NCBI GenBank assembly: GCA_016779605.1
Contig: JADHNH010000012.1
Location: forward strand, 1-53,484
DNA: 53,484 nt
Origin: Nevskia sp.
GTDB lineage: Bacteria > Pseudomonadota > Gammaproteobacteria > Nevskiales > Nevskiaceae
Direction: 5' to 3'
The position numbers and the translations under genes were made by a program. Of the stretch, positions 4,815 through 22,240 are shown one piece after another. Positions within the stretch are counted from its first letter, which is position 1, and every line of letters begins with the position of its first letter. The notes beneath the pieces were generated by a model. That model made no database searches and had not been told where the DNA came from. It worked only from the letters and a program-made list of their open reading frames with translations.

Positions 4815-5307
4815 CGGCTGCCACCTCCATGCTCCCGCCGCACAGGCGGACGGCTTCGGCCGCCACCAGCTCCGTCACCCCTGCCACCGCTGCCGCCACC
4901 GCCGCGCTCAGCGCCGCGCCGCCGTCGAAGCGGCGGCCTTCGACGGCGAAGACGACGATGTCACGCGGTGCGGCTTGCAGCGCGCGCGCCAAGCCAATGG
5001 CGGCAGCCAGGCCCAGCCCGTGGCTCGACGTGCAGGCCGCTTCGGGCGGCAGCGCGCCGCTTGCCAGGTCCAGGCGCTGCACGGCCCCGGGCGATCCGGC
5101 GGGCGCGGCCGCGTCCACGCACACCAGGGCATCATAGCCGGCACATCCGTCGACCAGGGCGAGCAGGTCGCCGCTGCAGCTCACGAGATCCGCCCCCGGC
5201 GGCAGGCGGCCGGCCAGACCGGCGGCGACCGCCGCGCCGACGCCGTCGTCGCCGCGGTCCGGGTTGCCGACGCAGGCCACCAGCACGCGCCGCGCCGCGG
5301 CGCTCAT
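4807..5307 (-). CDS. [NiFe]-hydrogenase large-subunit maturation protease (HycI/HybD family)
   Basis: This 166-residue endopeptidase should clip the C-terminal tail from the large subunit after nickel insertion. The N-terminal [11 protein letters not shown] motif is the family signature, with an acidic nickel-sensing residue; a second acidic stretch ([10 protein letters not shown]) and the conserved [12 protein letters not shown] follow. The ATG overlaps the stop of the large-subunit gene (ATGA), which fits processing of that subunit. It ends overlapping the hypA-like gene. The exact subfamily name cannot be fixed from sequence alone. Confidence 0.92.
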
Positions 5308-6593: not shown

Positions 6594-7359
6594 GCGCCTG
6601 GCTCTGTCGCAGGAACGGCTCGGCGGCCGCGTTGAACGTGCGGAATGCGCGCTGCACCTCGCGCGGCGCCGCGCCCAGCCGGCGCCATTGCCCGGCCAGC
6701 GCGGCTGTATTGGGCGTCTCCATCGGGCCGAAACAGCCGTAGCAGCCGCGCCGGAACGACGGGCAGATCGCGCCGCAGCCGGCGTGCGTCACCGGGCCCA
6801 GGCACGGCGTGCCCTGCACCATCACGCAGGTGATGCCGCGCCGCTTGCACTCGATGCAGACGCTGTGCGCGGCGATCGCCGGCTTGCGCCCGGCCAGCAG
6901 CGCCGAGATCACCTCCAGCAGCTGCGCCTTGTCCACCGGGCAGCCGCGCAGCTCGAAGTCCACCGCCACGTGCGCCGCGATCGGCGTGGAGGTAGCCAGG
7001 GTCGAGATGTATTGCGGCGAGGCATACACCGCGGCCACCATCTCGCCGATATCGCCGAAATTGCGCAGCGCCTGGATGCCGCCGGCGGTGGCGCAGGCGC
7101 CGATGGTCACCAGCAGGCGCGACTGCTGCCGCACCTTGACGATGCGCTCGGCGTCGTGCGCGGTGATGATCGAGCCCTCGACCAGGGAAATGTCGTACGG
7201 CCCTTCCTCGACGGCGCTGGACGCCTCCGGAAAGTTGGCGATGTGCACCGCCTCGGCCAGCGCCAGCAGCTCGTCCTCGCAGTCGAGGATCGACAGCTGG
7301 CAGCCGTCGCAGGAGGCGAATTTCCACACCGCCAGCCGGGGACGCGCGCGGCCGGCCAT
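6568..7359 (-). CDS. hydD: Group 3b [NiFe]-hydrogenase delta (small) subunit
   Basis: The 263-residue small subunit transfers electrons from the NiFe site through iron-sulfur clusters. Cys17 and Cys20 in SCDGCQLS, the GACATAGG segment and RGCPVDK form the proximal cluster region, and a C-terminal cysteine-rich part ([30 protein letters not shown]) supplies further clusters. There is no twin-arginine signal, which agrees with a soluble cytoplasmic enzyme. It begins one base after the gamma gene ends and overlaps the alpha gene. Confidence 0.95.
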
Positions 7360-7360
7360 C

Positions 7361-8260
7361 TCAGATCTCCCGTACCGCGAGCAGCCCGGCGATGCGGTCG
7401 TAGCGCATCACCGGCCCGTCCTTGCAGACGAAGGCCGGGCCGAACTGGCAATGGCCGCACAGGCCGATCGCACATTTCATGTTGCGCTCCATCGACAGGT
7501 GGATGCGCGACTGCGGCACGCCGGCGTCGCACAGGGCGCCGGCGGCGAAACGCATCATCACTTCCGGCCCGCACACCAGCGCATGGGTCTCGTGCGGGTC
7601 GAAGGCGGCGCGCCGGATCAGCGGCGTGACCACGCCGACGCTGCCGTGCCAGCTGGCGTCCGCGTGGTCCACCGTCACCATGACGTCCACGTCCAGGCGC
7701 GCGCGCCACCGCTCCAGCTCCTGGCGGAACAGCAGCTCGCGCGGATGGCGCGCGCCGAACAGGATGGCGACGCGGCCGTAGCGCTCGCGCCTGGCGAGGA
7801 GGTGGCGGATCGCCGGCCGCAGCGGCGCCAGGCCCAGGCCGCCGGCCACCACCACCACGTCCGCACCCTCGGCCGCGGCCAGCGGCCAGCCGCTGCCGAA
7901 GGGGCCGCGCACGCCGACCGCGGCACCCGGCTCCAGGCCGGCGAGCGCCGCGCTGACCGCGCCGACCTTGCGCACCGTGTGCAGGAAGCCCGCGCCGTCC
8001 TCGCTCGCCCCGCTGATGCTGATCGCGGTCTCGCCCACGCCGTGCCGGTACAGCATGTTGAACTGGCCCGGCGCGAACGCCGGCGCCGCGCCGGACTCCG
8101 GCTGCAATTCCAGGGTGACGGTGTCTCCGAGCTCGCGGCGCGCCTGCCGCACGCGGTAGACACGCGGCAGGAACGGATCGGCCGCCGCGGCTGCAGCGGC
8201 GATCCGCGCCATGTCCGCGATCTGTCCCGGAGCTGCGGCCGCGGCCTCAGCGGTTTCCAT
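7361..8260 (-). CDS. hydG: Group 3b hydrogenase gamma subunit (FAD/NAD(P)-binding reductase)
   Basis: This ferredoxin-NADP reductase-type protein links the hydrogenase to NAD(P)H. A flavin-binding beta barrel ([17 protein letters not shown]) is followed by a nucleotide-binding domain ([17 protein letters not shown]) and a C-terminal [2Fe-2S] loop ([14 protein letters not shown], then VCKDGP). The ATG at 8260 gives 299 residues and overlaps the end of the preceding gene by 14 bases; an ATG at 8290 would add ten residues and is less natural. It corresponds to the gamma subunit of the Pyrococcus sulfhydrogenases. Confidence 0.93.
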
Positions 8261-8705
8261 AGATATCCAGGATCTGCAGCTGGGTGGCATGCAGGCGCTG
8301 CACCAGGATCGGCACGAAGCGCTTCATCATTTCGTAACCCAGGTGGTGATCGGCCTCGCACTTGCCGCGCAGGCAGGCGGCGTCGATGCCGACCGCGCGC
8401 ACCAGGGTGGCCGCGCGCGCGTCATAGTTCCAGCGGTAAGGCGGCACCAGCCAGGACGCGCCGACGATCTCGCCTTCTCCCAGGGTCTCGAAAACCACCG
8501 GCGCGCGGCCCGGCTGGGCCAGTTCCAGCGCCACCCGGCCATGACGCAGGACAAAGAACTCGTCGGCGGAGCCCGATTCGCGGAACAGGTATTGCCCCGC
8601 GTCGAAGCGGTGGTTGCGCGCGCAGCCGGCGATCAGCGCGCGCAGCTCCGGCGACATGCCGGCGAAAAACGGGTGTCCGGCCAGCAGATCGTCAAGGCGT
8701 TCCAT
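8247..8705 (-). CDS. Stand-alone cyclic nucleotide-binding (Crp-like) domain protein
   Basis: A 152-residue protein consisting of one cNMP-binding domain: [13 protein letters not shown] at the N-terminus, the [22 protein letters not shown] beta-roll region (in short: GQYLF and [11 protein letters not shown]), the [10 protein letters not shown] position of the phosphate-binding cassette, and a terminal helix ending QILDIYGNR. There is no helix-turn-helix, so it is not a Crp/Fnr transcription factor. It overlaps both the beta (14 bases) and gamma (14 bases) genes, so it is translated with them, suggesting a role in enzyme control or assembly. The cassette lacks the usual RxS arginine-serine pair as far as I can see, so cAMP binding is not certain. 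Confidence 0.85.
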
Positions 8706-9852
8706 CTTGCCCCCTATTTGGCGCGGCCGCGGCGGTGCGCAGGGCCGCGGCTTCCTCGGTGATGTCGATGCCGACGGGGCACCAGGTGATGCAGCGGCCG
8801 CAGCCGACGCAGCCGGAGCTGCCGAACTGGTCGAACCAGCTGGACAGCTTGTGCGTGATCCACTGCCGGTAGCGCGAGCGCGTGCTCTGGCGCACGCTGC
8901 CGCCGTGCAGGTAGGAATGCTCGAGCGTGAAGCAGGAATCCCACTTGCGCACGCGCTCGGCGGAGGTGCCGGCCAGGTCGCTGTGATCCTCCACCGTCGT
9001 GCAGAAGCAGGTCGGGCACACCATGGTGCAGTTGCCGCAGCTCAGGCAGCGCTCGGCGACCTGGTCCCAGCGCGGATGCTCGGCGTTGCGCTGCAGCAGC
9101 TCGCGGATGCCGTCGGTGTCCATGGTGCGGCCCATCTGGCCGGCGGCGCGCGCCACCGCCGCGCGGGCGGCGGCAAGGTCCGCGTCGGTCGCGGCGCGAC
9201 GGTCGATCCCCTGCAGCATGGCGGTACCGGCTGCACTGCCGGCTTCCACCAGGAACCGGTGGCCGGCGTCGTCGAGCAGCTCGGTGAGCGCCAGGTCGAA
9301 GCCCGCCGTGGCTTGCGGGCCGCTGCCCATGGAAACGCAAAAACAGGTACCGCCGGCTTCGCCGCAGTTCACCGCCACGATGAACGCGTTGTGCCGGCGC
9401 GCCGCGTAGCCGACGTCTGGAAACGGCCCGCCGCAGAACACCTGGTCCTGGATCGCGATCGCGCGGATCTCGCAGGCGCGCACGCCGACGAAGGCATACC
9501 GTGTGGCATCCGGCTGCGGCGCGGTGACTTCCATGCGCTCGCCCTCCTGGCGCGTGCTCCACAGCGTCTCGACTGGCGGATGCAGGAAGCGCTTCCAGGA
9601 CTGCGGCCCCACCACGAAGCCGAACAGGGCCTGGTCGCCGCGGCGTTCCAGGCGATAGCGGCCGGCGTCCTGGCGATCGGTCCAGCCCGCCGGCAACTCG
9701 TCGACCTTGGCAATGCGGTCGTAGACTATGGCGCCGTCGCGCACGGCCGGCCCCAGCACCTCGTAGCCCGCCGCGCCGAGCGCGTCGAGCAGCTGCTGCA
9801 GCCCGGCACGCGCGATCACCGCAGCCTTGCCCGGGCCGGCCGGCTGCGTCAC
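8692..9852 (-). CDS. hydB: Group 3b hydrogenase beta (Fe-S) subunit
   Basis: This 386-residue electron-transfer subunit has two C-terminal ferredoxin-type clusters: [16 protein letters not shown] around residue 255 and [17 protein letters not shown] around residue 350. The N-terminal two thirds match the sulfhydrogenase beta subunit ([21 protein letters not shown]). The first possible start is a GTG at 9852, since an in-frame stop lies eight codons upstream; GGAG sits seven bases before it. It is the first large gene of the operon. Its product joins the gamma subunit to form the diaphorase half of the heterotetramer. Confidence 0.94.
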
Positions 9853-9949: not shown

Positions 9950-10120
9950 TCAGCGCGACTCATTGTAGGCATAATCCTTCGGCGGAATGCCGGGCCGCGA
10001 CGCATACGGCGGCGGCAGGCCAACGTACCGCGGCTGGCAAGCGCACACCGGACCAGTTACCGCCCCGGTGCCGTGCGCAAGGTCAATCGTCGGAGTCATG
10101 TCGCGGCGCGGGAGGCTCAT
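9950..10120 (-). CDS. Possible 56-residue leader ORF of the hydrogenase operon
   Basis: The long 5' leader of hydB contains an open frame starting MSLPRRDMTP, preceded by AGGA seven bases from the ATG. It encodes a short proline-rich product with a CAC cysteine pair near the middle and ends KDYAYNESR. It lies between the inferred FNR-type promoter and hydB, leaving about 97 bases before the hydB start. I do not recognise a family and there is no membrane segment. It may be a real small protein, a regulatory leader peptide or chance coding in high-GC DNA. Confidence 0.4.
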   Translation of the reverse strand: MSLPRRDMTPTIDLAHGTGAVTGPVCACQPRYVGLPPPYASRPGIPPKDYAYNESR

Positions 10121-10187: not shown

Positions 10188-10229
10188 ATTGTTCACCCGA
10201 GCACGATTCGCCGTATTGACGCAAGTCAA
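10188..10229 (-). promoter_or_regulatory. FNR/ANR-type promoter of the hydrogenase operon
   Basis: TTGACGCAAGTCAA at 10216-10229 is a perfect inverted repeat (TTGAC-N4-GTCAA) of the FNR/ANR/DNR class. On the minus strand an AACAAT -10 element lies at 10193-10188, placing a start near 10181 with the box centred at -41.5, the class II position. No matching -10 is seen at that distance on the plus strand, so the box probably serves the hydrogenase operon. An imperfect operator GAACA-CAT-TGTTC (10182-10194) overlaps the -10. Confidence 0.6.
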
Positions 10230-10333
10230 GCGGTCACACTGGACGCCTTTTGCCTGCCGATCATGGCAAGCTGCGCGGATCAGTGGCGCCCCCGCGGCGG
10301 GGCGCAGCCGTGCCAGGTGCAAAAGGACAAGGA

Positions 10334-12637
10334 ATGAGCTTGCGTTGGGTTTGGGTGCCGGAAGCGAAACGCCGCGGCGGCAGTTCGGCCGCGGCGATGA
10401 TCCTGTTGCTTGCGGTGTCGCCGACCGCGTTCTGCGCCGCCGACAATCCGGCCGCCGTGTTCGAGCTGCCCGAAGTGAACGCGGTGGCCACCGCGCCGCT
10501 GCCCGGCATCGGCCTGCCCTTGCAGCAGGTGCCCGGCAACATCCAGACCCTGTCCGGCAAGCAGATCGGCGCGCAGCGTCCGCTCGACGCCACCGACCTG
10601 CTCAACCGCAACCTCGGCAGCGTCAACATCAACGACACCCAGGGCAGCCCGTTCCAGCCCGACGTGAACTTCCGCGGCTTCACCGCCTCGCCGGTGCTGG
10701 GCACCCCGCAAGGCCTGTCGGTGTTCGTCGACGGCGTCAGGGTCAACGAGGTGTTCGCCGACACCGTCAACTGGGACCTCATCCCGGAGTCCGCCATCGC
10801 CAACCTCACCCTGGTGCCGGCGGCAAACCCCGCGTTCGGGCTCGGCAGCATGGGCGGCGCCCTGGCGGTCAACACCAAGAGCGGCTTCCAGTTTCCCGGC
10901 ACCTCCGTATCGGCCTACGGCGGCTCGTTCGCACGGCGCGACCTGGAGTTCGAATCCGGCGGCCACGGCGAGCGGCTCGACTACTTCATCAGCGGCAACG
11001 CGTTCCAGGAATCCGGCTGGGCCGATCACAATCCAGGCAAGGTGCTGCAGTTCTTCGGCAAGACCGGCTACCAGGACGAGCGCACCGACCTGGACCTCAG
11101 CTACACCTACGCCGACACCCACCTGGGCGGCAACCAGACCATCCCGACCTCCTGGCTCGATACGCCCACACAGACCTACTCCTGGCCGGACTACCAGGAC
11201 GACCGCATGCATTTCGTCAACCTGAAAGCCAGCCATTACCTGGCCGACGACCTGCTGCTGGCCGGCGACGTGCACGAGCGCCTGGTCAACACCGGCATCT
11301 TCAACAGCAACGTCAACGACAATTTCGACCCGACCCTGCCGGTCGGCGCCGGCAACCAGCCCACCGGCAACGCCATCAACCACATCCAGCAGTCGCGCCC
11401 GGGCGGCTCGCTGCAGCTCAACTGGCTGCCGACCGTGGCCGGGCACAAGAACGACCTCACCGCCGGCCTGAACTACGAGTTCGGCGCCACCCGCTTCAGC
11501 CAGTACTACCAGGAAGCCGGCTCCAGCCGCGACACCGGATCGACCGCGCCGGCCACGCTGCAGGTGAAGCTCCATACCGCCACGCGCGACACCGGCGTCT
11601 ACCTCACCGACAACTTCCAGGTCGACCGCCGCACCTTCCTCACGCTGTCCGGTCGCTACGACGACGCCACCGAGGACCTCGAGGACCAGCTCGGCACCGC
11701 GCTCAACGGCCACCACCGCTTTGTCCGCTTCAATCCCGCCGCCGGCCTGACCTACAACCCGACGCCCAGGCTCACCGGCTACGTCTCCTACGGCGAAGGC
11801 ACCCGCGTGCCGACGCCGATCGAGCTCTCGTGCGCCGATCCGAACGCGCCGTGCAGCCTGCCCAACGGCTTTTCCGGCGACCCCGACCTGAAGCCGGTGG
11901 TGTCCAAGACCTGGGAAGCGGGTGTGCGCGGACGCTGGGGGCGCGGCACGTCATGGAACGCGTCGCTGTTCCGCACGCGCCTGCAGGACGACATCCAGTT
12001 CATCAGCAGCGGCGGCGGCTCCACCAGCGCCGGCTATTTCCGCAACGTCGGCAAGACCCGCCGGCAGGGCGCCGAGCTCGGCGCCGAAAGCACGCTCGGC
12101 CGCCTCAGCCTGTCGGCGCACTACAGCCTGGTGCTGGCGACGTTCGAGACGCCGCTGATCCTGAGCAGCCCGGACAACTCCAGCGCCGCGCCAATCACCT
12201 GCCCCGCCTGCGCCGACATACGGGTGATGCCCGGCAACCGCATCCCCGGCGTTCCGCGCCACAACTTCAAGCTGCGCGGCGAATACGCCTTCACCAAGGC
12301 GTTCTCCGTCGCGCTCGACGCGCAGGCACAGACCAGCCAGTTCGCGCGCGGCGACGAGAACAACCTGGACGTCAACGGCCCGGTGCCCGGCTATGTGCTG
12401 GTGAACGCCAACGCGCGCTACGACTTCGCCGGGCACTGGCGCTTGTTCGGCAAGATCGACAACCTGCTCGACAGCCGCTACTACACCTTCGGCCTGCTGA
12501 GCCAGGATGTGTTCACCGCGCCCGGCCGCACCTTCGACCCGACCGGCGCGAGCTGGCGGTCGGAGCAGTTCCGCACGGTCGGCACGCCGATCGGCGGCTG
12601 GCTGGGCGTCGAGTACGACTTCGGCGACAAGGGCTGA
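10334..12637 (+). CDS. TonB-dependent outer-membrane receptor
   Basis: A 767-residue TonB-dependent receptor for an unidentified ligand. After a signal peptide (MILLLAVSPTAFCAA, cleaved near the ADNPA stretch) comes a plug domain with QVPGNIQTLSGKQIG, FRGFTASPVLGTPQGLSVFV and the GSMGGALAVNTKSGF block, then a 22-strand barrel with terminal YDFGDKG. The ATG at 10334 has AAGGA just upstream. No periplasmic partner, TonB or transporter gene adjoins it, so substrate cannot be deduced. It is divergent from the hydrogenase operon and converges on the NYN gene 24 bases downstream. Confidence 0.92.
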   Translation: MSLRWVWVPEAKRRGGSSAAAMILLLAVSPTAFCAADNPAAVFELPEVNAVATAPLPGIGLPLQQVPGNIQTLSGKQIGAQRPLDATDLLNRNLGSVNINDTQGSPFQPDVNFRGFTASPVLGTPQGLSVFVDGVRVNEVFADTVNWDLIPESAIANLTLVPAANPAFGLGSMGGALAVNTKSGFQFPGTSVSAYGGSFARRDLEFESGGHGERLDYFISGNAFQESGWADHNPGKVLQFFGKTGYQDERTDLDLSYTYADTHLGGNQTIPTSWLDTPTQTYSWPDYQDDRMHFVNLKASHYLADDLLLAGDVHERLVNTGIFNSNVNDNFDPTLPVGAGNQPTGNAINHIQQSRPGGSLQLNWLPTVAGHKNDLTAGLNYEFGATRFSQYYQEAGSSRDTGSTAPATLQVKLHTATRDTGVYLTDNFQVDRRTFLTLSGRYDDATEDLEDQLGTALNGHHRFVRFNPAAGLTYNPTPRLTGYVSYGEGTRVPTPIELSCADPNAPCSLPNGFSGDPDLKPVVSKTWEAGVRGRWGRGTSWNASLFRTRLQDDIQFISSGGGSTSAGYFRNVGKTRRQGAELGAESTLGRLSLSAHYSLVLATFETPLILSSPDNSSAAPITCPACADIRVMPGNRIPGVPRHNFKLRGEYAFTKAFSVALDAQAQTSQFARGDENNLDVNGPVPGYVLVNANARYDFAGHWRLFGKIDNLLDSRYYTFGLLSQDVFTAPGRTFDPTGASWRSEQFRTVGTPIGGWLGVEYDFGDKG

Positions 12638-12661
12638 GCAGCTGCAGCCGGCGCAGGCGGC

Positions 12662-13498
12662 TCACTCGTCCCGCGGCAGCAGCCGCAGCAGGTAGTTGCC
12701 GGACTTCTCGTCGCGCTCGACGGCGAGCTGGCCGCTGCCCTGCGCCGCCTCCAGCAGCTCGCGGAAGCCGCCGAACCCGTAGGCGGACTCGTTGAAGTCG
12801 GGGCGGCGGCGCTTCAGCGCCTGCTTGGCCATCGACGCCCACAGCTTGTTCTCCTCGCCGCGCTCGGCGGTGAGCGCTTCCACCGTTTCCACCAGCAGGT
12901 GCACCGCTTCCTGCCGGCGCGCGTCCTCCGCGCTGGCCGGCGGCGCGGGCTTCGCCTGCGGCTTGCCCGGCGAAGTGCGCGCCTCGGCCTTGCGCGCGGC
13001 GCGGCGCTTCTTCTGCTCCTGCTGCTGCACCAGGTCGTCGTAGAAAATGAACTCGTCGCAGTTGGCGGTGAGCAGGTCCGAGGTCGACTTGCGCACGCCG
13101 ACGCCGATCACCACCTTGTCGTTCTCGCGCAGCTTGGACACCAGCGGCGAGAAGTCCGAGTCGCCCGAAATGATCACGAAGGTGTCGACGTGCGCCTTGG
13201 TGTAGCACAGGTCCAGCGCATCGACGACCATGCGGATGTCCGCCGAGTTCTTGCCCGACTGGCGCACGTGGGGAATCTCGATCAGCTCGAACGAGGCCTC
13301 GTGCATGCCCTTCTTGAACTCCTTGTAGCGCTCCCAGTCGCAATACGCTTTCTTGACCACGATGTTGCCTTTCAGCAGCAGGCGTTCCAGCACCTTGCCG
13401 ATGTCGAAGCGCGGGTAGTTCGCCTCCTGCACGCCCAGCGCGACGTTCTCGAAGTCGCAGAAAAGCGCCATGTTCTGGATTTCGGCAGGAGAAGCCAT
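12662..13498 (-). CDS. NYN-domain (PIN-like) putative RNase with C-terminal LOTUS/OST-HTH-like domain
   Basis: The 278-residue protein starts with a NYN domain: FCDFENVALG supplies the first acidic residue, NSADIRMVVDAL the middle one, and ISGDSDFSPLV the third, the metal-binding set of PIN-like nucleases. A charged, Pro/Ala-rich linker (around residues 170-195) leads to a C-terminal LOTUS/OST-HTH-like module (ENKLWASMAKQALKRRRPDF, then GFGGFRELLE). Such proteins resemble LabA/MARF1-type RNA-binding nucleases. The ATG at 13498 has GGAG five bases upstream. It stands alone and converges on the TonB receptor gene. Confidence 0.85.
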   Translation of the reverse strand: MASPAEIQNMALFCDFENVALGVQEANYPRFDIGKVLERLLLKGNIVVKKAYCDWERYKEFKKGMHEASFELIEIPHVRQSGKNSADIRMVVDALDLCYTKAHVDTFVIISGDSDFSPLVSKLRENDKVVIGVGVRKSTSDLLTANCDEFIFYDDLVQQQEQKKRRAARKAEARTSPGKPQAKPAPPASAEDARRQEAVHLLVETVEALTAERGEENKLWASMAKQALKRRRPDFNESAYGFGGFRELLEAAQGSGQLAVERDEKSGNYLLRLLPRDE

Positions 13499-13590
13499 CG
13501 AAGCTCCGGTTGGGAAGTGGTGGATTGCACAGCTTAAGGCATGCCCTGCGCCGGCGTATCGCGCTTGCGGCGGCCGCCCCTGCAAGACTA

Positions 13591-14511
13591 TTACCGATAC
13601 CGCAGCGCCAGCATTTCGTGCTGCGGCCCCAGCTCGACCGTCAGGTCCGCACGCCGCGGCAGCACCTCCAGCGCATGCCGCGTCAGCCGCTCGTAGTGCT
13701 GGACGAAGCGCCGCAGCTGCGCCGCGTCCATGCCGCCGATCGCGGCGCCACCCGGCGCAGCGCCGGCCGCGGCTTCCGCCACGTTCTGCGCCTCCTGCCG
13801 GGTGCGCCAGCGCAGGATCGAGGCGAAATCAGGCGCCCGCAGGAACAACAGCCGGTCGACCAGGGCAAACAGCCGTGCGTAGGCCCCGGCGAGCTGGTCG
13901 TTGACGTAGCGCCGCCAGCGCCCGTCGGCGTCCTCCAATGCTTCAAGCTCGTTCACCGGCGCGCGCAGCTGCGCTTCGGCCTGCGGCGGCGTGCCGACGC
14001 ACCAGCCTTCGAACAGGACCAGGTCCACCGGCACCGCGATTTCCGTCCAGCCGCTTGCCGGCGCGCGGTCGTCGGCGGCCTTGACGAATTTCGGAATCCG
14101 CACCGGGCCGCCTGCGGCGTCCAGGCCGCGCAGCTGCCGCAGGATGGTGCCGGCCAGCGCCACATCGTGCGTCCCCGGCACGCCGCGGGTGCGCAGCAAC
14201 GGGTGCACCTGTGCGGCCAGGCGCTCGCGCTCCGCCCGCGGCAGGTAAAGGTCGTCCAGCGACAGCACCACGGCGCACAGGCCGTAGCGGCCCGCCAGCG
14301 CCTCGCGCAGGCGGCCGGCCAGGGTGGTCTTGCCGGTGCCCTGCGCGCCGTTGATGCCGACGACCGGCACGGACCCCGGGTGCGCCAATCCGGCGATCCA
14401 CCGGGCGATCGCCGTGATGTCCCGATTCTCCGCCGCCGCTGCGGTCAAGCCTGCGCCCGGCGCGGCGGGAACGCCGGAAGCCCCTCCTGCAGCCGTTCGT
14501 GCCGCCTGCAT
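13591..14511 (-). CDS. D-glycerate 3-kinase-like P-loop kinase (PRK/uridine kinase family)
   Basis: A 306-residue kinase with the Walker A motif GAQGTGKTTLAG, the VVLSLDDLYLPRAER block and LVLFEGWCVGTPP, which together match the plant-type/YggC-like D-glycerate 3-kinase branch of the phosphoribulokinase/uridine kinase superfamily. The ATG at 14511 lies inside the end of the upstream stress-protein gene (67-base overlap); a TTG at 14448, forming TTGA with that stop, is an alternative that would drop 21 poorly conserved residues. Substrate is inferred from the family only. It is the last gene of the putative low-oxygen group. Confidence 0.78.
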   Translation of the reverse strand: MQAARTAAGGASGVPAAPGAGLTAAAAENRDITAIARWIAGLAHPGSVPVVGINGAQGTGKTTLAGRLREALAGRYGLCAVVLSLDDLYLPRAERERLAAQVHPLLRTRGVPGTHDVALAGTILRQLRGLDAAGGPVRIPKFVKAADDRAPASGWTEIAVPVDLVLFEGWCVGTPPQAEAQLRAPVNELEALEDADGRWRRYVNDQLAGAYARLFALVDRLLFLRAPDFASILRWRTRQEAQNVAEAAAGAAPGGAAIGGMDAAQLRRFVQHYERLTRHALEVLPRRADLTVELGPQHEMLALRYR

Positions 14512-15452
14512 AGCTGCGCCAAGTCGAATTTCTCCTGCACCAGTTCCAGGGTGCCGGCCGGCTTGACCAGCATCAGGTCCACGGCCGCCTCCTGCATCAG
14601 GGTTTCCGCCGTGCTGCCGAGCAGCAGGCGATCCCAGGCGTCGCGATAGGCCGAGCCCAGCACCAGCAGGCCGATGCCGCGGTTCGCCACGAATTCCGCC
14701 AGTACCGCCGCCGGGGCTCCCGCCAGCCGGTGCCGGCATTCCGGCGGCACCTCGCGGAAATCCATGAACTCCGTGAACGCCGCCAGGTGCGCGGCCTCGG
14801 CCTCCTCGAACATCCGGCCGACCGGCGAAAACGTGTGGCGGTGCGGGGCGAGGAACGGCACCACCGAGACTACCTCGAGCTGCGCCTCCAGGCACTCCGC
14901 CAGGCCCAGCGCCTCGTGCAGGATCCGTGCGTTCAGTCCGTCGGCCTGCGCCGGCTCGGCCAGCACGTCCACCGCCGCCGCGATACGTTGCGGTCGCGGG
15001 TGCTCCCCGGCTTGGACGAACAGCGTGCTGCACGGCAGCAGGCGCATGAGCTTCCAGTCCAGCGGCGTGAACACGGTCCGCCGCAGCAACGATTCGCGAT
15101 GGCTGTCCTTCACCACCAGCTGCGCCCCGGTCGCCAATGCCTTGGCGATGACCGCCTCGTGCGCAAGCGGAGCCCACACGACATCGCATTGCACGGCCAG
15201 GCCGCGCAGCAAGTCGCCGGATGCCAGCTCGCCGAGCTTTTCCTGCTGCTCGCGCACCAGGTCGTTGCGCGCGTGGCCGGCGATCGCCCCACCGGCCCGG
15301 GCTGCAGCAAAGTCCACCGCATCGTCGTACTCGAAGATGCACAGGTGCAGGGTGCCGGCGCCGGCACGGGCGAGCTGCGCCGCCCGGCGCAGCGCAGGGG
15401 TAACCTGTGCCCCGGCGGGCACCACGGTCAGAATCGGGTCATAGCGGCTCAT
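14445..15452 (-). CDS. Universal stress protein with two UspA domains (UspE-like)
   Basis: The 335-residue protein contains two tandem UspA folds. Domain 1 covers roughly residues 1-150 (MSRYDPILTVV, then LVVKDSHRES). Domain 2 covers about 155-310 and has the nucleotide-binding-like end LLVLGSAYRDAWDRLLLGSTAETLM, with GSTAE being typical. Tandem Usp proteins act in stress and anaerobic survival. It follows the AI-2E-family permease by 76 bases and overlaps the kinase, so the three are probably cotranscribed from the FNR-type promoter at about 16640. Confidence 0.9.
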   Translation of the reverse strand: MSRYDPILTVVPAGAQVTPALRRAAQLARAGAGTLHLCIFEYDDAVDFAAARAGGAIAGHARNDLVREQQEKLGELASGDLLRGLAVQCDVVWAPLAHEAVIAKALATGAQLVVKDSHRESLLRRTVFTPLDWKLMRLLPCSTLFVQAGEHPRPQRIAAAVDVLAEPAQADGLNARILHEALGLAECLEAQLEVVSVVPFLAPHRHTFSPVGRMFEEAEAAHLAAFTEFMDFREVPPECRHRLAGAPAAVLAEFVANRGIGLLVLGSAYRDAWDRLLLGSTAETLMQEAAVDLMLVKPAGTLELVQEKFDLAQLCRRHERLQEGLPAFPPRRAQA

Positions 15453-15528
15453 CGTCGGCCTCCGGATGCGTACGGCAAAGGCTAGCTCAATTCCGCCGCC
15501 TGCCTCGGGCCGGGGCCTGGGCCTGGCC

Positions 15529-16605
15529 TCACGGCCAGCTGCGCCGCTCGCCCAGCACGCCCTCGATGTAGAGCGTCTGCACGCCCACCAGCAGCAGGAT
15601 GGTCAGGGGCGCGGCCAGCAGCACGCCGACCGCTCCGAGCAGGGTGCCGAAAATCGCGGCGGCGAAGATCGTAAGGGCCGGCGGCAGCCTGACCGTCTCG
15701 TTCTGCACCAGAGGCGTGATCACGTCGCCCTCGACCACGTGGACACCGGCGTAGAGCAATGCCGTGTAGAGCGCCAGCCAAGGGCTTTGCGTCAGCGCCA
15801 TGAGCACCGCAGGGCCGGCCGCGGCCAGCGGCCCCACGTAGGGCACGAACGCGAACGTGCCGGAGATCAGCCCGAGCGCCAGCGGCGCACTCACGCCCAG
15901 CGCCCACAGCCCCAGCGAGCTGAGCAGCCCGACGGCCAGCATGGTCAGGCACTGCCCGACCAGCCAGCGCTGCAGGGTCTCGCCGGCGAAATCCAGTATC
16001 TCCGCTGCGCGCGCGCGCAGCCGCGGCGGCACGAGCTGCAGCACTGCACCCCGATAGCGCTGGGGCTGCATGGCGAAATACACGCCGGCCGCGACCATGA
16101 CCACCGCGTAGGCGGCGCCGCGCAGGGTCGCGGTGAAGAAAGCGCCGATATGGCTGGCCAGGGCGCCGGTGGCGTTCGGCAGGTTCACGCCCTGCACCTG
16201 GCCCAGCAGCCAGTGGCCCAGGGGGCCGCGCGCCAGCGCCCGCTCGAGGTCTGCAAGCGTCTGCGGCAGGCGTTCGACGAGGATATCGAACTGGGCGTCG
16301 ATGTTCGCGCCGAACAGCCAGGCGACAGCGGCAAATGCGCCGGACAGCAGCAGCACCACCGGCACCACCGCCCATTGTTCGCCGATCGGCACGGCACGGC
16401 TCAGCAGGCGGGCCAATCCGCGCAAGGCGATCGACAGGACCACCGCACCCAGCGCAACCGTGAGAATCCCGGCCAGCCTCCAGGTCAGCAGCGCCACGGC
16501 GGCCGCCACGACCAGCAGCAGTCCTTGCCCGGCCAGGGTTTTCCGGGCTGCCGCGCCCCGCGCGTCCGGCGCGCGATCCGCACCGGATGATTCGTCGTTG
16601 GCCAT
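15529..16605 (-). CDS. AI-2E-family transporter (PerM/YdiK-like membrane protein)
   Basis: This 358-residue inner-membrane protein has about eight hydrophobic segments: a paired pair at the N-terminus (GLLLVVAAAVALLTW, ILTVALGAVVLSIAL), an extracytoplasmic stretch, and a C-terminal block with GTFAFVPYVGPLAAAGPAVLMAL and FGTLLGAVGVLLAAPLTILLL, both signatures of the family. Members include TqsA and possible ion exporters, so the name does not prove autoinducer transport. An FNR-type box lies 70-80 bases upstream of the start. It leads the Usp and kinase genes. Confidence 0.88.
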   Translation of the reverse strand: MANDESSGADRAPDARGAAARKTLAGQGLLLVVAAAVALLTWRLAGILTVALGAVVLSIALRGLARLLSRAVPIGEQWAVVPVVLLLSGAFAAVAWLFGANIDAQFDILVERLPQTLADLERALARGPLGHWLLGQVQGVNLPNATGALASHIGAFFTATLRGAAYAVVMVAAGVYFAMQPQRYRGAVLQLVPPRLRARAAEILDFAGETLQRWLVGQCLTMLAVGLLSSLGLWALGVSAPLALGLISGTFAFVPYVGPLAAAGPAVLMALTQSPWLALYTALLYAGVHVVEGDVITPLVQNETVRLPPALTIFAAAIFGTLLGAVGVLLAAPLTILLLVGVQTLYIEGVLGERRSWP

Positions 16606-16643
16606 TGCTTCATCCGCCTGCGTGCATGGCTGAGCCGGCAGCC

Positions 16644-16686
16644 ATCATGCCGCCGGGCCGGCGTCGCGGGCCTTGATCTGCGTCAA
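16644..16686 (-). promoter_or_regulatory. FNR/ANR-type promoter upstream of the AI-2E transporter gene
   Basis: TTGATCTGCGTCAA at 16673-16686 is a TTGAT-N4-GTCAA FNR-like box that overlaps the stop codon of the ATPase gene. On the minus strand CATGAT (16649-16644) is a good -10, placing the box centre within one base of -41.5 from the inferred start near 16638. The leader to the ATG at 16605 would be about 33 bases. Confidence 0.6.
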
Positions 16687-19283
16687 ACCTGGCCGGCGCG
16701 CGGGGCGGCCGTGCCATCGTCCGCACTCGCCGCCTGCGCCAGCGGCGACAGCAAGGGCTTGAGCGCCTCCAGCACCAGCAGCAACGCCGTGCTTGCGCCC
16801 AGGCTGATTCCCAGGTCGTCCCAGTGCAGCGTGCCGAAGCCGAACAGGTGCTTGAGGAACGGGGTGTAGAGCACCGCGCCCAGAAGCACGACCAGCGCGG
16901 CCAGCATCCGCCACAGGATCGGGTTGGGCTGCCGCAAGGCTTCCAGCAGCGAACCGCCGAAATTGCGGTTGACGAAGATCAGCGCAACGTTGGTCAGCAC
17001 CAGCGAGACGAAGCTGATCGCGCGGGCGTCGGGGTCCGGCATCTGCGCTCTACGCAGCGCGGCGTGGAAGCCGAGCACGAGGCAGGTGGTCAAGACGCCC
17101 TGCAGCAGGCTCCACAGGATCAGTTTTCGCGAGAAAAGGGGCTCGTCCGGCTTCCGCGGAGGCCTGCGCATGACATTGGCTTCCGCCGGCTCGGCCTCGA
17201 ACACCACCGAGCAGACCGGGTCGATGACGAACTCGAGGAACACGATGTGCACCGGCCCGAGGATCATCGGCCAGCCGAACAGCAGCGGCAGCAGGGCCAG
17301 GCCGGCGATCGGCACGTGCACCGCCAGGATGTAGGCCATGGCCTTGCGGATGTTGTCGTAGATCCGGCGTCCGAGACGGATCGCCGCGACGATCGAGCCG
17401 AATTCGTCGTCGAGCAGCACGATGGAGGAGGCTTCGCGCGCCACGTCGGTGCCACGGCCGCCCATGGCGACGCCGATGTGCGCGGCCCGCAGCGAGGGCG
17501 CGTCGTTCACGCCGTCGCCGGTCATCGCCACCACCTCGCCGGCGGCCTTGAGCGCCTCGACGATGCGCAGCTTGTGCCTGGGCATGACCCGGGCGCAGAC
17601 GCTGACACCTTCGATGCGGTCCCGCAGCTGGCGTTCGTCCAGCCCGTCGATCTCGGCGCCGCTCAGGGTGGTGCCGGCACCGTCGAGCCCGGCCTGCGCG
17701 GCGATGGCGCGCGCCGTCGCCGGGTAGTCCCCGGTGACCATGATCACGCGGATACCGGCGGCGCGGCAGTCGTCGATCGCATGCGGCACCGTCGCGCGCA
17801 CCGGGTCCGCCAGTCCGATCAGGCCCAGGAAGCGGAAGTCGAATGCGTCCTGCCGCTCCGGCCAGGTGTCGCCGTCGAAACGGGCCTCCGCCACGCCGAG
17901 GACACGCAGGCCGCGCCTGGCCATGTCGTCCAGCCGCGCGCGCAAGTCCACCCGCTCGGCCTCCGGCAACCGGCACAGTCCGGCGATCGCCTCGGGCGCA
18001 CCCTTGCTCGCCACGATGTAACCCGCCTCGGCGCCCAGCTTCCAGGCCTGCGACATCGCCATCAGCTCCGGCGACAGGCCATATTCGCGCACCAGCTCGG
18101 CTGCCTCGCCCGCATCGCCGCCGGCTTCGAGCAGGGCTTTCTCCATCGGATCGGTGGCGTGCGGCGCGCAGGCCAGCGCCCCGCAACGGGCCAGCCGCCC
18201 GACGGCCGGCGCCATCGGCTGCCCCGATGCCATGACGTGGCTCGCGCCCTGCGTCTGCAGCTCCGCCACCGACATGCGGTTCACGGTCAGGGTGCCGGTC
18301 TTGTCAGTGCACAGCACCGTCGCAGCGCCGAGCGCTTCGACACTCGCCGCGCGCCGCACCAGCACGTTGCGCTGCGCGATGCGCCGCGCGCCCAGCGCCA
18401 GGAACACGGTCAGCACGAGCGGAAATTCCTCCGGCAGCAGCGACATCGCCAGGGCGATGCCCGCCAGCAGGCCTTGCAGCCAGGCGCCGCCGGACAGGCC
18501 GTAGAACAGCACCACGGCCGCACTCGTGCCGAGACCGAACACGGCGAAGATGCGCACCAGGCGCTGGAGTTGGATGGACAGCGGGGTCGCCTCTTCGGCT
18601 ACCTCGCTCAGCAGCACGCCGATCTTGCCGATCTCGCTGCGGCCGCCCGTCGCGCGCACCTGCGCGATGCCGCGGCCGCGTACCACCAGCGTGCCCGAAA
18701 ACACGTAAGGCAGGCCGTCGCCGCCCGGATGCGGTGCCTCGCCCAGGTCCGCGGCCGCCGCTTTGGTCACCGGCACCGACTCCCCCGTCAACAGGGATTC
18801 GTCGGCGGCCAGGTCCAGCGCGGAAACCACCAGCGCATCGGCCGGCACGCGATCGCCCTCCGACAGCAGGACGATATCGCCGCGCACCACTTCGCGTCCC
18901 GGGATGCGCCGCTGCGTGCCGTCGCGGATCACCAGTGCGCGCGGGCTGCTCAGGTCGCGCAGCGCTTCCAGCGCCCGTTCGGTGCGCGATTGCTGCAGCA
19001 CCGTGATGGTCACCGACACGGTTGCGAACGCCAGCAGGAGCAGCGCCTCGCCGAGGTCGCCGATCGCCAGGTAAACCACGCCAGCGGCCACCAGCAGGCG
19101 GAACATCGGCTCGCGGAATACGTCGCGGATCACCCTGGCCAGCGACCGCGCCTGCTGGCGCGGCAGCTCGTTGTAGCCCTCCAGGTGCAGCCGCCGCTGC
19201 GCCTCGGGCTCGGACAGCCCGAGGAGCGGTGCGGCGCCTGCGGCTCGGTCCGCGGTTAATGCGCCGGCTTGGGGCTCGGTCAT
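16683..19283 (-). CDS. P-type cation-transporting ATPase (P2-like)
   Basis: An 866-residue E1-E2 ATPase of the calcium/cation P2-like branch. In order: cation ATPase N-terminal domain (GLSEPEAQRRL), actuator loop TGES near residue 166, transmembrane segment 4 with PEEFP near residue 284, the phosphorylation site DKTGTLT with Asp at about 327, the hinge TGDGVNDAPSLR and C-terminal transmembrane segments. PEEFP replaces the PEGLP/PEALP of classic calcium pumps, so ion specificity is open. The ATG at 19283 follows the cytochrome gene by four bases; a GTG at 19301 is an alternative start. Homologous pumps belong to oxygen-limited regulons in pseudomonads, by recollection. Confidence 0.9.
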   Translation of the reverse strand: MTEPQAGALTADRAAGAAPLLGLSEPEAQRRLHLEGYNELPRQQARSLARVIRDVFREPMFRLLVAAGVVYLAIGDLGEALLLLAFATVSVTITVLQQSRTERALEALRDLSSPRALVIRDGTQRRIPGREVVRGDIVLLSEGDRVPADALVVSALDLAADESLLTGESVPVTKAAAADLGEAPHPGGDGLPYVFSGTLVVRGRGIAQVRATGGRSEIGKIGVLLSEVAEEATPLSIQLQRLVRIFAVFGLGTSAAVVLFYGLSGGAWLQGLLAGIALAMSLLPEEFPLVLTVFLALGARRIAQRNVLVRRAASVEALGAATVLCTDKTGTLTVNRMSVAELQTQGASHVMASGQPMAPAVGRLARCGALACAPHATDPMEKALLEAGGDAGEAAELVREYGLSPELMAMSQAWKLGAEAGYIVASKGAPEAIAGLCRLPEAERVDLRARLDDMARRGLRVLGVAEARFDGDTWPERQDAFDFRFLGLIGLADPVRATVPHAIDDCRAAGIRVIMVTGDYPATARAIAAQAGLDGAGTTLSGAEIDGLDERQLRDRIEGVSVCARVMPRHKLRIVEALKAAGEVVAMTGDGVNDAPSLRAAHIGVAMGGRGTDVAREASSIVLLDDEFGSIVAAIRLGRRIYDNIRKAMAYILAVHVPIAGLALLPLLFGWPMILGPVHIVFLEFVIDPVCSVVFEAEPAEANVMRRPPRKPDEPLFSRKLILWSLLQGVLTTCLVLGFHAALRRAQMPDPDARAISFVSLVLTNVALIFVNRNFGGSLLEALRQPNPILWRMLAALVVLLGAVLYTPFLKHLFGFGTLHWDDLGISLGASTALLLVLEALKPLLSPLAQAASADDGTAAPRAGQV

Positions 19284-19287
19284 GCCG

Positions 19288-19977
19288 CTAGGCGTCGCCA
19301 CCCTGGCCGCGCATCGCGCCTGGCTTGCCGGGGAATCGCAGCTTGCGGCCGGTGATCATCGCGCGCGGAAGGTTCTCGCGGTGGATCAGGCTGCCGGCGA
19401 TCACGCCCGCCAGGTGCAGCACCACCAGCCCGAGCGTGAGGTTGGCGAAAAAGCCGTGCAGCTCCTCGTACGCGCTTTCGGCCTCTTTTTCACCCGCTTC
19501 GCCCTCGGCGTCCTTCGCCTTCGCGCCTTCGGCCGCGACTGCCGGCACCGTCGTTCCCGCCGCCGGTGCATGACCCAGCCAGGCGGCCAGCGGCCCCTCG
19601 TTCTCGGAATCCGCCTGCACTACAAAGCCGGTCACCACGGTCGCCGCCAGGCACACCAGCAGGGCCACGATCATGGCGCCGCCGGCGGGATTGTGCCCCA
19701 GGTAGTGCGCCGGCTTGCCGCGGAACAGGCTCGACAGGTAGCCGAACACCTCGACAGGCCCGCGGACAAAATCGCTGAACCGGGCGTAACGCGAGCCGAT
19801 GAAGCCCCAGATCACGCGCGCCACCACGTAGGCGCCCACCCAGTAACCGGCGGCGATATGCGCATCCTCGAAGTCTTCGGCGGTGAAATAGGCCACCAGG
19901 AATGCCGCTGCCAGGGTCCAGTGGCCGATCCGTACGAATGAATCCCAGACACGGACTTGTTCTTTATTGTCTTCCAT
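19288..19977 (-). CDS. Cytochrome b561-type (Ni/Fe-hydrogenase b-subunit-like) membrane protein
   Basis: This 229-residue membrane protein has four predicted helices: RIGHWTLAAAFLVAYF, HIAAGYWVGAYVVARVIWGFI, GGAMIVALLVCLAATVVTGFVV and LTLGLVVLHLAGVIAG. Conserved histidines in helices 1, 2 and 4 suit heme b ligation. A charged insert rich in Lys, Glu and Ala (about residues 148-168) separates helices 3 and 4. The ATG at 19977 has GGAG eight bases upstream; a longer frame reading back into the promoter is rejected. It leads the ATPase gene and is preceded by a perfect FNR-type box. A role in anaerobic electron transfer is inferred. Confidence 0.85.
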   Translation of the reverse strand: MEDNKEQVRVWDSFVRIGHWTLAAAFLVAYFTAEDFEDAHIAAGYWVGAYVVARVIWGFIGSRYARFSDFVRGPVEVFGYLSSLFRGKPAHYLGHNPAGGAMIVALLVCLAATVVTGFVVQADSENEGPLAAWLGHAPAAGTTVPAVAAEGAKAKDAEGEAGEKEAESAYEELHGFFANLTLGLVVLHLAGVIAGSLIHRENLPRAMITGRKLRFPGKPGAMRGQGGDA

Positions 19978-20002
19978 GTGGTTCGCTCCAGTTGACCATT
20001 GT

Positions 20003-20044
20003 AGGTTATCCCTGTCGCCAGGCCCCGGCATTGATGCGGATCAA
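20003..20044 (-). promoter_or_regulatory. FNR/ANR-type promoter of the cytochrome b561-ATPase pair
   Basis: TTGATGCGGATCAA at 20031-20044 is a perfect consensus FNR box (TTGAT-N4-ATCAA). On the minus strand TAACCT at 20008-20003 fits a -10 with the box centred at -41.5 from a start near 19996, leaving a 19-base leader containing GGAG. Confidence 0.7.
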
Positions 20045-20162
20045 GTCGCTCCGCCGCCGGCCTGCAATGGCGGACGACGCCCGCAGAAAGCCGGCGATCC
20101 GCGCCACTGCCGTTCCAGGCCGCATCGACCGTGTCAGGCAATCGTCATACGCCGGGCCCATG

Positions 20163-20204
20163 ATGACCCAGATCAATGATGCCGGTCCTTCGTTTCCATA
20201 GGGT
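20163..20204 (+). promoter_or_regulatory. FNR/ANR-type promoter of the pyruvate-kinase-like gene
   Basis: ATGACCCAGATCAA at 20163-20176 matches the FNR consensus with two departures in the left half-site and a perfect ATCAA right half. TAGGGT at 20199-20204 is a plausible plus-strand -10 exactly at class II spacing (start near 20211). The leader would be about 125 bases. The 358-base intergenic region 19978-20335 thus carries two divergent candidate boxes and no other gene that I can see. Confidence 0.5.
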
Positions 20205-20335: not shown

Positions 20336-22240
20336 ATGAACAACAAGGCGCTCGCCGAAACCGCCGCAGCAGACTCCCGGCGCCGCGAATACGAAGCGCT
20401 GGCCGCCGAGCTGGAGCGGCTGCGGGCCGACATGCAGGCGCTCGCCCAGCATGCCGCGCCGCAGCTTGCGGCCGCCGATCCCGCCTACCGCAGCAGCGCC
20501 TGCAACTTGCTGCATTACGTCGCACTGCGCAAGCACGACCTGCGCAGCCTGCAGGAACGCCTGGCGCGCCTGGGCCTGTCGTCGCTCGGGCGCGCCGAAT
20601 CGCACGTGGCCGCCACCGTCGACGCCATGCTGGGCACGGTTGCCGCGGCGCTCGGCCGGCCGGCGGCGGAGTCGGCCTGTGCGGTGGGCTTCGACGAAGG
20701 CCACCGGCTGCTGCGCGCCCACACCGAGGAACTGCTGGGCGCGGGCCCTGCCCGCCGCAATACCCGCATCATGGTCACCATGCCGCGCGAGAGCGCGGAC
20801 GACTACTCGCTGGTGCACGACCTGCTGCGGCGCGGCATGGATTGCATGCGCATCAACTGCGCGCACGACGACCCCGAGGTCTGGCAGCGCATGATCGACA
20901 ACCTGCGCCGCGCCGAGTGCGCCGTGCAACGGCCTTGCAAGTTGCTCATGGACCTCGGCGGGCCCAAGCTGCGCACCGGGCCGGTGCAGCCCGGCCCGGC
21001 CGTGCTCAAGCTGCGGCCGCGGCGCGATGCGCTGGGCCGGGTGCTCGCACCGTGCCGGATCTGGCTGACGGCGGCCGGCGGCGGCACGGCGCCGCCGGCA
21101 GCGGCCGACGCGGTGGTGCCGGTGGCCTCGTCCGACTGGCTTGCCGGCCTGCGCAAGGGCGACGAACTCGAGTTCATCGACGCCCGCGGCGCGGCGCGGC
21201 ACTGGCAGGTCACCGGAGAGGCGCCCGGCGGCTGCTTCTGCCAGAGCGAGCGCACCTGTTACCTGGTGCCGCGCATCGCCCTGCGGCGGCACGGCCCCAA
21301 GCGCCGCGGCAAGGCGCAGAACTCGACCGTCGCAGACCTGCCGCGGCAGGAAAGCTTCATCCTGCTGCACCAGGGCGACCGCCTGCTGCTGAGCCGCGGC
21401 GAAGCCCCCGGCCGCCCTGCCCGGCTGGACCGCCGCGGCCGCGTGCTGCGGCCCGCGTCGATCGGCTGCCTGCCGCCGGAATGCATCGACGACGTGCGCG
21501 CCGGCGAGCCGATCTGGTTCGACGACGGCCGCATCGGCGGCATCATCGAGCAGGTCGCCGACGGCACCGCCGCGGTGCGCATCACGCATGCGCCGGAGCG
21601 CGGCGCCAAGCTGCGCGGCGGCAAGGGCATCAACCTGCCGCTCAGCCGGCTGCGCATGCCCGCCTTCACCGAAAAGGATCGCGCCGACCTGCCCTTCGTC
21701 GCCGAGCACGCCGACATGGTCGGCCTGTCCTTCGTCGACCGCGTCGAGGACGTCGAGCACCTGCAGGCCGAGATCGACCGCCTCGGCGGCCGGCGGCCGG
21801 CCATCGTCCTGAAGATCGAGACACGGCGTGCCTTCCAGCACCTGCCGGAGCTGCTGCTGGCGGCGATGCGCCGGAGCCGCTGCGGGGTGATGATCGCGCG
21901 CGGCGACCTCGCGGTGGAATGCGGCTTCGAACGGCTCGCCGAGGTGCAGGAGGAAGTGTTGTGGTTGTGCGAAGCGGCGCACGTCCCGGCAATCTGGGCC
22001 ACCCAGGTGCTGGAGAGCCTGGCCAAGGAAGGTCTGCCCTCGCGCGCCGAGATCACCGACGCCGCCATGGGCCACCGCGCCGAGTGCGTGATGCTCAACA
22101 AGGGCCCGCACATCGTCGAAGCGGTGGGTGCGCTGGACGACATCCTGCGGCGCATGCAGGGCCACCAGAACAAGAAGACCGCGCGCCTGCGCCCGCTGCA
22201 CCTGGCGATGGATTTTTCCGTCGAGCATCCGCCGGCCTGA
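20336..22240 (+). CDS. Divergent pyruvate-kinase-like protein with long N-terminal extension
   Basis: Of 634 residues, the first 130 or so form a helical extension with no recognised domain, then the pyruvate kinase barrel begins at RIMVTMPRESADDY (usual CTIGPAS position) and GMDCMRINCAHDD. Further matches are LLMDLGGPKLRTGPV, LTEKD-like FTEKDRADLPF, VGLSFVDRVEDV, VLKIETRRAF, GVMIARGDLAVE and ATQVLESLAKEGLPSRAE. The usual MLSGETA is replaced by MLNKGPH, and the protein ends near there, so the C-terminal allosteric domain is missing. Family membership is clear; true pyruvate kinase activity is not certain. It converges on the acetoacetate-decarboxylase-like gene. Confidence 0.8.
   Translation: MNNKALAETAAADSRRREYEALAAELERLRADMQALAQHAAPQLAAADPAYRSSACNLLHYVALRKHDLRSLQERLARLGLSSLGRAESHVAATVDAMLGTVAAALGRPAAESACAVGFDEGHRLLRAHTEELLGAGPARRNTRIMVTMPRESADDYSLVHDLLRRGMDCMRINCAHDDPEVWQRMIDNLRRAECAVQRPCKLLMDLGGPKLRTGPVQPGPAVLKLRPRRDALGRVLAPCRIWLTAAGGGTAPPAAADAVVPVASSDWLAGLRKGDELEFIDARGAARHWQVTGEAPGGCFCQSERTCYLVPRIALRRHGPKRRGKAQNSTVADLPRQESFILLHQGDRLLLSRGEAPGRPARLDRRGRVLRPASIGCLPPECIDDVRAGEPIWFDDGRIGGIIEQVADGTAAVRITHAPERGAKLRGGKGINLPLSRLRMPAFTEKDRADLPFVAEHADMVGLSFVDRVEDVEHLQAEIDRLGGRRPAIVLKIETRRAFQHLPELLLAAMRRSRCGVMIARGDLAVECGFERLAEVQEEVLWLCEAAHVPAIWATQVLESLAKEGLPSRAEITDAAMGHRAECVMLNKGPHIVEAVGALDDILRRMQGHQNKKTARLRPLHLAMDFSVEHPPA

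Follow-up and report, generated by a model that had tools for sequence, protein, structure and literature searches.

Contig JADHNH010000012.1 of Nevskia sp. (53,484 nt, analysed at its full length and called the window here) carries four candidate binding sites for regulators of the FNR type. They lie in front of genes for a NiFe hydrogenase, a permease with a universal stress protein (Usp), a cytochrome b561 with a cation ATPase, and a pyruvate kinase. An earlier note on this DNA had read these sites as a candidate low-oxygen regulon of four promoters. We examined the sites, the whole source genome and its relatives for the signs that such a regulon would leave.

Four FNR-type boxes and the genes behind them

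The window was scanned with the pattern TTGAY-N4-RTCAA, and a box was regarded as class II when its centre lay at about −41.5 from the start. The four positions given by the earlier note were right, three of them being exact matches and the one at 20163 having one mismatch. The boxes and the −10 hexamers predicted for them are as follows.

10216–10229, minus strand: FNR-type box TTGACgcaaGTCAA (minus-strand reading TTGACttgcGTCAA), exact match, facing the hydrogenase operon
10188–10193, minus strand: predicted −10 AACAAT, 22 bp past the 10216 box, 5.4 bits, predicted start at ~10181
16673–16686, minus strand: FNR-type box TTGATctgcGTCAA (minus-strand reading TTGACgcagATCAA), exact match, facing the permease-Usp-kinase genes
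16644–16649, minus strand: predicted −10 CATGAT, gap 23 from the 16673 box, 3.7 bits, predicted start at ~16637
20031–20044, minus strand: FNR-type box TTGATgcggATCAA (minus-strand reading TTGATccgcATCAA), exact match, facing the cytochrome b561-ATPase pair
20003–20008, minus strand: predicted −10 TAACCT, gap 22 from the 20031 box, 4.8 bits, predicted start at ~19996
20163–20176, plus strand: FNR-type box ATGACccagATCAA, one mismatch, facing the pyruvate kinase gene
20199–20204, plus strand: predicted −10 TAGGGT, gap 22 from the 20163 box, 3.1 bits, predicted start at ~20211

For each of the four boxes a −10-like hexamer was found at gap 22 or 23 on one side only, the opposite side scoring −6.9 or less at these gaps. 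The claimed distance of about −41.5 from a plausible −10 was thus borne out, and the same spacing peak is seen genome-wide (see below). All four boxes have a pyrimidine-purine centre and C or G at position 6, two features on which the earlier note had not drawn. The 16673 box shares the final four bases of the ATPase gene. The TonB receptor gene was ruled out as a target of the 10216 box, the plus side having no −10 (best score at gap 22/23, −10.0).

Eight sites in the window match with at most one mismatch; dinucleotide shuffles averaged 1.33 such sites, and 0 of 100 shuffles reached eight. A composite score was calculated by adding a −10 term, with custom approximate sigma-70 weights, to a box matrix for which the 74 exact boxes beyond the window served as the training set. 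The four boxes were the four highest sites in the window, with scores of 28.2, 27.4, 26.7 and 20.9. The fifth entry (13.7) was 20031 again, read on the opposite strand, and the best site independent of the four scored 10.3. The top score across 40 dinucleotide shuffles was 19.9, barely under the weakest box, so that no shuffle reached the four, in agreement with the claim that this four-fold geometry is unlikely by chance. The other one-mismatch matches, at 14563, 16969, 30091 and 47247, scored 10.3 or less and were dropped. The number of exact boxes in the window is unremarkable (three against 1.0 expected from the genome average, Poisson 0.08). Within the 10-kb stretch of the earlier note the same three have a probability of 0.001, for a stretch that was picked post hoc.

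The genes facing the boxes were assigned with Pfam, and the bounds of the hydrogenase operon, cytochrome b561 and the ATPase come from a custom gene caller.

4807–9852, minus strand: NiFe hydrogenase operon
8692–9852, minus strand: hydrogenase iron-sulfur (FeS) subunit
8247–8705, minus strand: cyclic nucleotide (cNMP)-binding protein of the hydrogenase operon
7361–8260, minus strand: hydrogenase NAD-binding subunit
6568–7359, minus strand: hydrogenase small subunit
5304–6593, minus strand: hydrogenase large subunit
~4807–5307, minus strand: hydrogenase maturation protease
down to 851, minus strand: HypF and HypD genes, downstream of the operon
13591–16605, minus strand: permease-Usp-kinase genes
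15529–16605, minus strand: AI-2E-family permease
14445–15452, minus strand: double-Usp protein
13591 to ~14440, minus strand: P-loop kinase-like protein (P-loop Pfam families, all under cut-offs)
16683–19283, minus strand: P-type cation ATPase
19288–19977, minus strand: cytochrome b561
20336–22240, plus strand: pyruvate kinase of the PRK14725 type, 634 amino acids (NCBIfam NF011314, 804 bits against a cut-off of 642; Pfam barrel)

Pfam agreed with the names hydrogenase, permease, Usp, cytochrome, ATPase and pyruvate kinase given in the earlier note, whereas its "kinase" had only the P-loop matches under cut-offs. The hydrogenase was nearest to the NCBIfam sulfhydrogenase families ShyA/HydA, all under their curated cut-offs, and we infer that it is group-3b-like. 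A long leader of ~330 nt separates the 10216 promoter from the operon. This leader contains a 56-amino-acid open frame (9950–10120, minus strand). A conserved leader peptide was set aside, no convincing homologue of this frame being found in the searched loci (best 45% over 29 residues, E 0.09). The cNMP-binding protein has 152 amino acids and a cyclic-nucleotide-binding domain with no second Pfam match, and a counterpart occupies the same place in the hydrogenase operon of genomes G057, G049 and G009 (66, 64 and 35% identity). An unusual fold for the pyruvate kinase was likewise set aside, since the protein belongs to the known NF011314 type. No close permease orthologue for footprinting was found among 99 relatives (best E 5e-47, 32% identity).

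The genome-wide box set and the FNR-type regulators

The source genome (4.08 Mb, ~95% complete) contains 77 exact boxes, against six for the reversed control pattern. Genes around the boxes were called on the fetched flanks with a custom simple codon-usage caller. The boxes are placed outside genes: 75 of the 77 were not wholly inside a called gene, although the coding share of the fetched flanks was 81%. The 66 boxes with a called gene start within 420 bp gave 96 site-gene pairs, in which the hexamer TAnnnT was found 19 times at gap 22, six times at gap 23 and 0–3 times at each remaining gap between 0 and 69. A −10 score of at least 2 bits at gap 22/23 was reached by 49 of the 96 pairs, against 5.8% at control gaps 26–59, and at 46 of the 66 sites it was reached in at least one direction. 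This sharp peak is the class II (−41.5) geometry across the genome, as judged by −10-like hexamers. The genome motif scan proposed in the earlier note thus came out in its favour. Its candidate regulon of four is supported as well, except that these boxes make up only a minor share of a much larger set and that the 10216 box points to the hydrogenase side only. Of the 77 exact boxes, 70 have a pyrimidine-purine spacer centre, and C or G occupies position 6 in 120 of the 154 strand readings. The boxes are clustered by contig, with 11 of the 77 on C4, six on C13 and five on C30; C13 additionally carries one FNR gene and a PPDK_N protein.

A target list of 67 genes, three of them in the window, was drawn up by taking the better direction at each site regardless of its −10 score. 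Sixty of the 64 targets outside the window were scanned against Pfam, the four shortest being omitted, and 49 of the 60 had a Pfam family at E 1e-6. Targets that fit a low-oxygen or survival response are four Usp proteins, Hsp20, phosphoketolase, a PPDK_N protein, COX1, the small chain of ribonucleotide reductase, a bacterial globin, a second P-type cation ATPase, an ATP-synthase beta-like protein, HiPIP and a DksA-like protein. A chitobiase-like protein and AdoMet synthetase have no obvious fit. Eleven Usp matches were found in the genome, in eight genes, one of them under the cut-off. Four of the eight genes stand directly at a box (on C13, C30, C114 and C143), two stand behind a box within the same gene run (the window gene and another on C13), and no box accompanies the remaining two (on C70 and in a 969-amino-acid frame on C106). 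That six of eight Usp genes are boxed has a probability of ~1e-7, assuming 150 box-controlled genes among 3,700, both totals being estimates. Two small DUF2933 proteins also stand behind boxes (L170:11144-11353 and L193:12158-12376), with class II −10s of 4.7 and 4.8 bits; they are possibly an unstudied low-oxygen family.

Regulators that could bind such boxes are present. Four proteins of the genome belong to the Pfam Crp family, three of them FNR-like and one Crp-like. An FNR/ANR homologue, on which the earlier note had made its reading depend, is therefore encoded three times. The three FNR-like proteins (L002, L003 and L004) share a CxxCPVxxC (CX2CX4C) cluster, an internal SQVC cysteine and an ETVCR helix. 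All four cluster-ligating cysteines, three N-terminal and the one in SQVC, are present in each of them. The glutamate and arginine of the E-x-x-S-R recognition helix are retained, and the serine is replaced by cysteine in all three. The top matches of one FNR-like protein among solved structures were FNR regulators (E 1.7e-29). The Crp-like fourth protein has the helix SREMAGR, which retains E-x-x-x-R without the FNR neighbours. Ten HTH_Crp_2 matches lay above the cut-off, and the helices of nine were inspected (C134:35211 was left out); the five beyond the three FNR-like and one Crp-like proteins all read RREGV or RRSGV.

Conservation in relatives

Homologues of the FNR-like proteins were compared in 23 rows, L219 and L228 having no readable frame. 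At E ≤1e-30 and with the source genome included, 13 of 13 FNR homologues of the genus have the CX2CX4C spacing and 12 of 13 the ETVCR helix, L227 having ETVSR. In other genera of the family, the spacing is CX2CX4C in G021 and CX2CX5C in G022 and G023, and G018 lacks a cluster of this kind. Outside the family but within the order, four homologues (G059, G060, G064 and G070) combine CX2CX5C with ETVSR.

Boxes were counted in each genome with the pattern TTGAYNYRNRTCAA, and FNR copies at E ≤1e-30, so that genomes scored as zero may carry more distant FNR proteins. Within the genus, 70, 67 and 28 boxes were counted where two or three FNR-like proteins are encoded, 2–9 where there is one, and 0–6 where there is none, except for G001 with 18. 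Both genomes with about 70 boxes (three and two FNR-like proteins) also carry the hydrogenase and the pyruvate kinase. G004, with two FNR copies and 28 boxes, lacks the hydrogenase and a full-length pyruvate kinase. FNR copies and boxes were correlated in the genus (Spearman 0.56, p 0.016 with the source genome; 0.46, p 0.06 without it) and in 25 genomes of the family (0.60, p 0.0015, kinship ignored). Because kinship was not corrected for, these correlations are only suggestive.

The pyruvate kinase is full-length in five of 99 relatives; G097 has it in two pieces in one frame, and G051 has a fragment. The hydrogenase FeS subunit was found at 48% identity or more in four of the 99, with a fifth, G098, at 36%. 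G009, which appears to be a Nevskia, is the only genus mate with both genes, on separate contigs. Both carry an exact box, followed at gap 23 by a −10-like hexamer of 3.7 bits for the hydrogenase and 2.6 bits for the pyruvate kinase. At the hydrogenase locus of G009 (L133 2728) the operon and a Usp gene diverge from a stretch that contains one exact box, with a −10-like hexamer to either side of it. The pyruvate kinase of G052, probably Solimonas flava, has a box with one mismatch and a weak −10 (1.4 bits). Upstream of the G057 hydrogenase a two-mismatch box is followed after 22 bp by TAGATT, as seen by eye. General synteny around the pyruvate kinase was also considered and dropped; tblastn with proteins of the window and the regulon over 80 loci from other organisms gave three ATPase matches and one match each to PPDK, Usp and a partial phosphoketolase. 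Exact boxes numbered 10 across all 80 loci, against five for the reversed pattern.

A predicted low-oxygen regulon, its rivals and its meaning

On this evidence the four boxes very probably mark class II FNR-type promoters. They would belong to a regulon that comprises several dozen promoters, with 77 exact boxes, and serves low-oxygen energy economy and stress survival. When oxygen drops, one or more of the three FNR-like proteins, presumably carrying an oxygen-labile Fe-S cluster, would dimerise. The dimers would bind TTGAY-N-YR-N-RTCAA boxes centred at about −41.5. Bound FNR would then recruit RNA polymerase to the hydrogenase, permease-Usp-kinase, cytochrome b561-ATPase and pyruvate kinase genes, whose expression is predicted to depend on oxygen.

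Several observations weigh against this picture. No called gene start lies within 420 bp of 11 of the 77 boxes, two of which are intragenic. Among the fitting targets the −10 is weak at phosphoketolase (0.1 bits), Hsp20 (1.4) and the globin (1.4), and other predicted targets depend on oxygen or have no evident anaerobic role (fatty acid desaturase, luciferase-like monooxygenases, type II secretion ATPase, L,D-transpeptidase). In the window, the 20163 box is imperfect and has a weak −10. G001 (86% complete) has its 18 boxes with no FNR match at E ≤1e-30. In G009, a stronger −10-like hexamer at the pyruvate kinase box (6.1 bits, gap 21) points the opposite way, and the hydrogenase FeS frame contains one in-frame TGA. 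No box was found upstream of the pyruvate kinase in G036, G049 and G057, three of the five full-length family homologues. An exact box stands upstream of the gene in one of the 80 loci from other organisms, that of G009, and six more have one-mismatch matches only, one of them inside the matched gene; some of these loci contain little upstream sequence. The gene is thus widespread, but its predicted FNR control looks like a feature of this lineage.

That the boxes arose by chance in GC-rich sequence has a negligible probability. The pattern is short and its reversed control does occur six times in the genome, against which stand the 77 true matches and the shuffles, none of which (0 of 100 and 0 of 40) matched the window result. 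It is somewhat less improbable, though still unlikely, that only the three exact boxes function and that the 20163 box is a chance one-mismatch match. Its composite score of 20.9, the lowest of the four, is close to the shuffle maximum, its predicted leader to the pyruvate kinase gene is ~125 nt long, and three of the five full-length family homologues have no box. Yet its class II −10, CA centre and C at position 6 match the consensus of the genome itself, the exact box and gap-23 hexamer of G009 stand upstream of the same gene, Solimonas flava has its one-mismatch box there, and the four other one-mismatch matches of the window score far lower.

The boxes could also be bound by another Crp/FNR member that shares the TTGAY box and answers a different signal, such as a nitric-oxide regulator of the DNR/NnrR type or a FixK-type protein. 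DNR/NnrR- and FixK-type proteins share FNR-type boxes, and the FNR-like protein that was compared with solved structures has FixK2 and DNR chains among its relatives there. Among the nine of ten HTH_Crp_2 proteins inspected, in an assembly ~95% complete, only the three with cysteines are FNR-like, the remainder having RREGV/RRSGV (five) or SREMAGR (one). The SREMAGR helix has the arginine and glycine neighbours of Crp, which reads a different half-site. A CxxC cluster was found in none of the five non-FNR proteins checked by pattern (L232, L233, L235, L236 and L237). We consider such a regulator quite improbable.

The predicted FNR-controlled set resembles the ANR, Fnr and lxa responses already known in proteobacteria. 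As part of a genome-wide set, the boxes point to a low-oxygen network that is real, though of a familiar type. The same box, class II placement and four cluster cysteines characterise the FNR/ANR regulons of gammaproteobacteria, among them those of E. coli FNR (PMC4505428) and Pseudomonas Anr (PMC6588701). FNR binds and activates from boxes TTGATNNNNATCAA (PMC4505428). A heme-copper oxidase is among the predicted targets here, as in those regulons. Unlike them, the genome has three CX2CX4C paralogues, CX2CX5C being found in two family homologues of other genera and four from other families of the order. The helix is ETVCR, unlike ETISR in solved FNR, and the predicted targets here extend to a group-3b-like hydrogenase and a PRK14725 pyruvate kinase.

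Herbaspirillum seropedicae is a betaproteobacterium. Three Fnr proteins, an fnr1 promoter site centred at −42 and Usp targets are described for it in PMC5934665. The boxes here share the preference of its Fnr3 motif for C/G at position 6 and for C/T at position 7. The main text of that paper does not contain the word hydrogenase, a predicted target here. P. putida has three FNR proteins per genome (a passage of PMC4505428). The Burkholderia lxa locus unites an FNR protein, six Usp proteins and a heat-shock protein, according to excerpts of PMC9733578 and PMC6127331, and this low-oxygen locus is given as absent in strain H111 in a passage of PMC3759415. In Burkholderia and P. putida, as here, there are several cysteine-bearing FNR proteins, low oxygen induces Usp and heat-shock genes there, and FNR-box-like motifs stand at many of the induced genes (PMC4505428, PMC9733578 and PMC6127331). 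The lxa genes form a single 50-gene locus, whereas the boxes here are scattered across many contigs. In Nitrospira marina a group 3b hydrogenase and Usp proteins were raised under low oxygen, according to a part of PMC8115632.

No CX2CX4C FNR was recognised among the literature matches listed. A search on FNR, Usp, hydrogenase, phosphoketolase and low oxygen found only work on competitive exclusion in chicks, and one on FNR, group 3b hydrogenase, binding site and promoter found no regulon of this sort, as judged by its listing. The mycobacterial DosR dormancy regulon has a cargo of Usp, alpha-crystallin Hsp20, cation P-ATPase and hydrogenase similar to the predicted cargo here. DosR is a two-component regulator with a different binding site, and the likeness is in output only.

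A wider proposal is put forward tentatively, as a possibility that is rather less likely to be right than wrong. The genus may hold a multiplied variant FNR subfamily (CX2CX4C, ETVCR, boxes with a strong preference for a pyrimidine-purine centre) with a greatly expanded low-oxygen regulon, in which copies and regulon would have grown together and accessory genes would have been captured by box gain. The FNR-type regulon predicted from the boxes would give a testable oxygen-response map for a bacterial group in which no paper naming Solimonas, Nevskia and FNR together was found, a search that papers naming just one genus would escape. It places hydrogenase, pyruvate kinase and stress proteins under a single predicted oxygen switch, and the close relatives form a natural series in which FNR copies range from zero to three and boxes from zero to about 70.

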